From an uncultured Clostridia bacterium (GTDB lineage: Bacteria; Bacillota; Clostridia; Christensenellales; UBA1242), in NCBI GenBank assembly GCA_944381825.1, contig CALWMK010000012.1, positions 1-43,149 on the forward strand: a stretch of 43,149 bases of DNA, written 5' to 3'. The translations under genes were made by a program, and so were the position numbers. Numbering within the stretch: position 1 is the first letter of the stretch; each line of letters begins with the position of its first letter. The notes under the pieces are model-generated. The model saw only the letters and a program-made list of their open reading frames with translations. It did no database searches and had not been told where the DNA came from. Of this stretch, positions 22,157-22,455 are shown piece by piece.

Positions 22157-22214
22157 CAAAAAAAGCACTAAGTTTGTAAGGGGATTGGAATTGAACCAAT
22201 GACCTTCGGGTTAT
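22157..22214 (-). repeat. Duplicated 3' half of tRNA-fMet with terminator half
   Basis: Positions 22180-22214 match 34 of 35 nt of the initiator tRNA gene (22386-22420), covering the anticodon loop 3' part, variable loop and T arm. The next segment (22157-22177) copies the T-rich arm of the tRNA terminator. About 20 nt, including the CCA end and the other terminator arm, are missing. It is not a functional tRNA. Confidence 0.85.
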
Positions 22215-22337
22215 ACTTCGCTAATGCTTCGTGGCGTTCGCATTTTAAAAAAATGCTCGGCATGGAGCTCTCCTCCGGGTCGGGCGATGCACTCATGGCT
22301 TCGTGCATTAAATTGCTTAACGCAATTTACATAACCC
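22208..22337 (-). repeat. Hairpin-rich insert beside tRNA-fMet
   Basis: GGGTTAT (22208-22214) and ATAACCC (22331-22337) form a 7-bp inverted repeat; one arm is the tRNA anticodon-arm strand. Minus-strand hairpins include AAATTGC-GTTAA-GCAATTT, ATGCAC...GTGCAT and GCATTTT...AAAATGC. The layout is the same as at 125-240, and the first hairpin shares the ATTGC/GCAAT core with that element. No reading frame is evident. Confidence 0.6.
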
Positions 22338-22348
22338 TCTTTAAAATA

Positions 22349-22377
22349 AAAAAGCACTAAGTTTGTTTAGTGCCTTA
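22349..22377 (-). terminator. tRNA-fMet terminator
   Basis: On the minus strand GGCACTAAACAAACTTAGTGC, a hairpin (GCACTAA/TTAGTGC), is followed by TTTTTT directly after the tRNA. Confidence 0.8.
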
Positions 22378-22378
22378 T

Positions 22379-22455
22379 TGGTTGCGGGGATTGGATTTGA
22401 ACCAATGACCTTCGGGTTATGAGCCCGACGAGCTACCGAGCTGCTCTACCCCGCG
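22379..22455 (-). tRNA. Initiator tRNA-fMet (CAT)
   Basis: A complete 77-nt cloverleaf with encoded CCA. The acceptor is CGCGGGG/CCCCGCA with the C1-A72 mismatch that marks initiators. The anticodon arm TCGGG-CTCATAA-CCCGA has the three consecutive G-C pairs required for P-site entry. A sigma-A promoter and terminator flank it. Confidence 0.95.

Follow-up and report, generated by a model that had tools for sequence, protein, structure and literature searches.

The window, a stretch of 43,149 nucleotides from a 997-kb, 29% GC genome of a Clostridia-type family (G000), harbors two tRNA loci of the same layout. At the fMet locus, read on the strand of the tRNA, the intact gene is followed by its terminator, the block GGGTTATG, two hairpins, the block GCCCGAC, a structured core, a copy of tRNA nucleotides 36-70, and one terminator arm (Table 1). 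Reverse-complemented, GGGTTATG and GCCCGAC match the tRNA sequence on either side of the copy's inner end (the breakpoint). An earlier note on this DNA had described a second copy of the 3′ half of tRNA-fMet and of one terminator arm, and both are confirmed: the copy of nt 36-70 is identical at 34 of 35 positions (22180-22214), and the arm AAAAAAGCACTAAGTTTGT occurs exactly at 22159-22177 and 22348-22366. The displaced part is devoid of the acceptor 3′ strand, the CCA end, and the other terminator arm; because the acceptor 3′ strand and CCA are absent, it looks like a decaying relic. The edge of the insert had been assigned a role in closing the anticodon stem. The complementarity of CATAACCC to the anticodon-side strand stands, but the edge is better described as an antisense match to the target site, and a second antisense block (GTCGGGC, 22279-22285) was absent from that description. 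A second copy of the fMet core was looked for across the genome, and none was found.

Table 1. Features of the fMet and Ile loci in window coordinates
Feature	Position	Strand	Basis
Intact tRNA-fMet (CAT)	22379..22455	(-)	ARAGORN + Rfam
Terminator hairpin of the intact tRNA	22348..22378	(-)	Inverted repeat + T run; arm recurs at 22159-22177
Antisense block 1, GGGTTATG, complement of CATAACCC (anticodon + 3′ anticodon strand)	22330..22337	(-)	Sequence
Hairpin pair AAATTGC..GCAATTT + AATGCAC..GTGCAT, splitting the antisense block	22286..22329	(-)	Fold + sequence
Antisense block 2, GCCCGAC, complement of the 5′ anticodon strand GTCGGGC	22279..22285	(-)	Sequence
Structured core of the fMet unit	22215..22278	(-)	Fold
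Displaced copy of tRNA-fMet nt 36-70 (34/35)	22180..22214	(-)	Sequence comparison
Terminator arm, second copy of one arm	22159..22177	(-)	Sequence comparison
3′ part of a tRNA-Ile copy; the contig begins inside the array	40..86	(+)	Sequence comparison
Ile-unit antisense block CCCACCTTA	125..133	(+)	Sequence comparison
Hairpin pair splitting the Ile antisense block	134..168	(+)	Sequence
Ile-unit antisense block ATCAGGGTG	169..177	(+)	Sequence comparison
Ile-unit core	178..231	(+)	Sequence
Displaced tRNA-Ile 3′ part, ending in CCA	232..273	(+)	Sequence comparison

The Ile array spans window positions 1-290, and the end of another contig, C17, holds the intact tRNA-Ile. The likeness to the fMet locus that had been proposed holds, with CCCACCTTA, two hairpins, ATCAGGGTG, a core, and a copy that extends to CCA; positions 232-267 repeat 45-80. 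An ATTGC...GCAAT hairpin is present in both inserts, as had been observed, but it is not the common core of the family, and other units carry other hairpins in its place. The displaced Ile parts (window 40-274 and contig C17:1-174) have the acceptor GGAATG/CATTCC, which differs from AGAGATG/CATCTCT of the intact gene, so the intact tRNA-Ile may have been replaced. Elsewhere in the window, a palindromic stretch between tRNA-Met and tRNA-Glu contains a 42-bp repeat (88%; 26029-26070 and 26202-26243) with no other copy in the genome. The 243 nt between these two tRNAs were considered as a decayed unit and rejected, as they hold no convincing tRNA match.

Partial tRNA copies were searched for in all contigs of this genome. 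Downstream copies, of 3′ parts, are found at Lys(ttt), Ile, Leu(cag), Leu(tag), and fMet, with the Lys(ttt) array comprising at least three units across two contig ends. Upstream copies, of 5′ parts, are found at Gly(gcc), Ile, and two Arg tRNAs; the Arg copies look like decayed whole tRNAs. Several contig ends are located inside tRNA-unit arrays. A genome-wide pattern scan for the Lys form yields five loci, and the complete layout is seen in two of them (L120 and L122).

The same layout is found in many genera of the family, as established by a survey with the Lys query against 99 relatives and then of the tRNA regions of G038, G023, and G035. The tRNAs with a partial copy no more than 700 nt away number 9 of 36 in G000, 10 of 37 in G038, 7 of 40 in G035, and 2 of 42 in G023, counts in which a few of the matches are short and link different tRNAs; in loci from the order's other families, 83 tRNAs give one weak call. 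The earlier note had taken recurrence at two tRNAs as an argument for a mechanism. This view is strengthened by the scan of the genome and its relatives, in which G000, G038, and G035 each have 7-10 of ~40 tRNAs with partial copies and the same layout recurs at many tRNAs of the genome and the family. Units also occur in tandem. At one tRNA-Leu locus, two sister species of a single genus differ in copy number, both being occupied (one unit in G019 and two in G053). In G038, the Asn, Thr, Leu, and Lys tRNAs have related cores (73-97% identical), all positioned at nt 19-20, and every core is accompanied by an antisense block of its own and a spacer hairpin of common type. Among the fetched loci, one in G008 (L191, 503-1089) contains a full OLE RNA (393.8 bits) near a tRNA-Asn array, and a contig terminus in G029 (L091, near 2020-2048) resembles sequencing-adapter sequence.

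For the analysis of geometry, 63 units were gathered under one rule from this genome and other genera of the family; the units are phylogenetically non-independent, and rates must not be read from the set because many loci were fetched for matching a unit. Units upstream of tRNAs carry 5′-part copies, and those downstream carry 3′-part copies. Breakpoints are concentrated in three places: the D loop, where the copy ends at nt 18-20 in 11 of the 30 upstream units; the anticodon region; and the T arm, where the copy begins at nt 57-62 in 13 of the 33 downstream units. The copies are 98.5% identical on average and exact in 47 of the 63 units. Among units whose copy extends to the tRNA end, 14 of the 19 upstream and 19 of the 27 downstream ones lose identity 0-6 nt past the mature end; copies running further belong, on inspection, mostly to tandem arrays. 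The inserts are mostly 32-194 nt (longest 376) and cluster at ~110-180 nt, and no integrase gene lies within them. The units comprise a displaced tRNA fragment and a restored gene. Promoter-side or terminator-side hairpins of common type between the antisense block and the intact tRNA, seen in G038 and in G031/G056, suggest that this spacer comes with the unit. The core lies on the tRNA strand in upstream units and mostly on the opposite strand in downstream units, as would be expected of one DNA element in two orientations; some downstream cores in G037 and G040 are on the tRNA's own strand.

The antisense block is referred to here as g. Its best score within 14 nt of the breakpoint averages 9.3 over the 63 units, as opposed to 5.5 with swapped tRNAs and 5.5 with shuffled inserts, and 37 of the 63 score above all 15 shuffles; the match is therefore far above chance, as the earlier note had held for the layout. 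In the 33 units scoring at least 9, complementarity forms a plateau between about -4 and +9 and is down to background at around -8 and +10; these units were selected by score, but the plateau could have fallen anywhere in the search window. Sense matches show no general enrichment (5.9 versus 5.5), with a short sense stretch in a few Leu and Asn units. In the His unit of G009, GCTAAAGGGATTT-hairpins-GAACCCCCGACC constitute a near-perfect complement of 25 nt that is interrupted at the breakpoint. A clear antisense match is lacking in about half of the 63 units, which are perhaps decayed. The block is often imperfect, in contrast to the near-exact copy of the tRNA part. Its mismatches show no enrichment of G-T wobble, and thus there is no sign of pairing by RNA.

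A core model, R1, built from eight cores, matches about 90 places in 32 of 59 family genomes. Of 50 loci fetched (three places twice), 36 have an intact tRNA close by, nine are cut off by a contig end or adjoin one, one (L204) neighbors a tRNA remnant, and four are dispersed copies in G028. In the alignment, the almost invariant GCGACGCGT and TAGCCAAAGC flank a strongly covarying hairpin with changes on both sides in 9 of 10 pairs, and a C-G/G-C exchange is seen at columns 3/54. The common core for which the earlier note had suggested aligning the inserts exists as a conserved structured segment in many units, but the fMet and Ile units of the window do not match R1; the plan is common and the sequence is not, core sequences varying between subfamilies. 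Scans of the units with Rfam 15 covariance models returned only tRNAs and unrelated genes, with one weak tmRNA match on a unit of G016 (19.3 bits, cut-off 47). Searches of phage, plasmid, and viral contigs with core sequences gave no match. The dispersed R1-type copies of G028 have a CCCCTCT/AGAGGGG hairpin at one end. Two of ~120 bp at one locus (L228, 1325-1444 and 3112-3231) are inverted and 1.7 kb apart, and one lies inside a cation-ATPase-like reading frame that stays open.

On balance, the unit is probably a mobile micro-element, non-autonomous and non-coding, that is directed at a single tRNA gene, carries a guide to its target, and restores the tRNA. A target X|Y, in which X is the outer part of the tRNA and Y the rest, would become X′-core-g-spacer-X-Y in either orientation. 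X′ would be the original tRNA part, now displaced, and the core a structured segment of ~60-110 nt. The block g, whose antisense match covers target positions of about -4 to +9 relative to the X|Y joint, may serve as an insertion guide by base pairing as RNA or single-stranded DNA. The spacer would supply a new promoter in upstream units or a new terminator in downstream units, and a fresh X arriving with the unit would rebuild the tRNA gene. Judging from the anatomy, such a small element would enter a tRNA loop by the action of a recombinase provided in trans.

No enzyme common to the carriers emerged from searches for RT, IS110, and Y1 proteins. The IS110 DEDD recombinase (PF01548) was detected in 0 of 12 genomes. 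RT (PF00078) is present in 17 of 59 genomes and absent in G000, G038, G035, and G037. The Y1 transposase (PF01797) occurs in 9 of 59 family genomes, is absent from the same four unit carriers, and has a representative in G028. A conserved Xer-like tyrosine recombinase of ~350 aa is present in most genomes tested and is probably housekeeping. Ordinary islands are also found in G000. In a 4.3-kb segment at tRNA-Lys(ctt) (contig C2:59079-63465; L011, L012), 45 bp of the tRNA 3′ half are repeated exactly; a broken integrase match adjoins the segment, and its ends show no antisense block by eye. A ~10.9-kb segment at tRNA-Ser(gct) (contig C19:630-11600; L048) has a 24-bp end repeat and an integrase match adjoining the tRNA.

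Replication template switching at the tRNA and terminator hairpins, producing a partial duplication and an inverted copy with no mobile element, would account for antisense and sense tRNA pieces occurring together, for the terminator often lying within the copies, and for the abundance of hairpins. It is nevertheless unlikely. A conserved, covarying core present in many tRNAs and genera has no local template, and 83 tRNAs from elsewhere in the order gave one weak call. In addition, g is often imperfect next to a tRNA copy of 98.5% identity, even though both would be copied at one moment. A near-exact X′ next to an imperfect g speaks against g having been copied from the target at the event. 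This disparity, together with related cores at the same position in four tRNAs of one genome, makes targeted insertion the better fit. Remnants of tyrosine-integrase islands, with the displaced tRNA part as an attachment-site scar and the remainder deleted, are a quite doubtful source. Known islands interrupt a tRNA gene, rebuild it, and leave part of it displaced (PMC4383910, PMC9897764), the anticodon- and T-loop breakpoints fit, and the two islands of this genome have integrase matches beside them; yet random deletion leaves unexplained the clustering at ~110-180 nt, the conserved core, the antisense block, the tandem arrays, and the D-loop breakpoints. Core and antisense block recur in many units with no integrase genes, and by eye the 4.3-kb island does not have such a block at its ends.

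A host function has a similarly low probability. Here, the tRNA half and antisense guide would form RNAs for tRNA repair by trans-splicing or for tRNA regulation, and the order guide-core-3′ half or 5′ half-core-guide does resemble a trans-splicing ribozyme, the structure is conserved, and upstream units follow the original tRNA promoter region. However, the distribution is patchy across genomes and tRNAs, downstream cores are mostly antisense and behind terminators, and some displaced halves are damaged, including that of fMet in the window. It is equally improbable that the units are REP-like hairpin elements that have a lengthened guide and depend on Y1 (HUH) transposases for their movement. 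G028 combines dispersed, hairpin-ended R1-type copies with a Y1 protein, and IS200/IS605 enzymes select sites by short guide pairing (PMC6006769), but the known guides are tetranucleotides as opposed to ~13 nt here, and four unit carriers are among the majority of family genomes in which Y1 is not found.

The targeted micro-element could, as a tentative and less probable extension, represent a new class of nucleic-acid-guided mobile DNA, in which a ~100-nt structured element with a ~13-nt guide brings a recombinase to a tRNA loop and carries a repair piece. The literature search returned no description of the X′-core-g-spacer-X-Y layout; as far as that search reaches, the plan is categorically new, although a prior description may exist. 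If g is a guide, the units would add another programmable insertion system, one with built-in gene repair and a nucleic-acid component of very small size. Guide or not, they account for the partial tRNAs that litter the tRNA loci of this family and for the assembly breaks there, and they form a structured family absent from Rfam 15.

Integrase islands, IS110 elements, and REPs each share part of this plan, but none has all of the unit features, and the defining enzymes tested are absent from key carriers. Group I and group II introns of tRNA genes have a guide that spans the exon junction in the order complement(3′ side)-complement(5′ side). The units have a putative junction-spanning guide in the same order; however, they are too short, place no intron between exons, have no RT in key genomes, and give no Rfam match. 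The IS110 bridge RNA has target-complementary stretches of 8-9 and 4-7 nt (PMC11208160), comparable to about 9 and 4 nt in the units, and is likewise a structured non-coding segment. In contrast, IS110 guides pair with both target strands, whereas the unit block is one contiguous antisense stretch, the target gene is rebuilt, and PF01548 is missing from the 12 genomes searched. REP and CGTC palindromes and Rickettsia palindromic elements are short repeats that are thought to be mobile, some of them inside genes, and the CGTC class is without a known transposase (PMC3733652). They are small and palindromic like the units, but at 20-40 bp they are not tRNA-specific and have no target-complementary guide. 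A parallel in anatomy is offered by the tyrosine-integrase islands of the Islander set, which split and restore a tRNA gene and leave a displaced fragment (PMC4383910, PMC9897764). In both, the tRNA is split in a loop, a piece borne by the insert rebuilds the gene, and the displaced fragment remains at the far end; unlike the islands, the units measure 0.1-0.2 kb, carry no genes, contain a structured core and an antisense match to the target, form tandem arrays, and occur in both 5′ and 3′ orientations.
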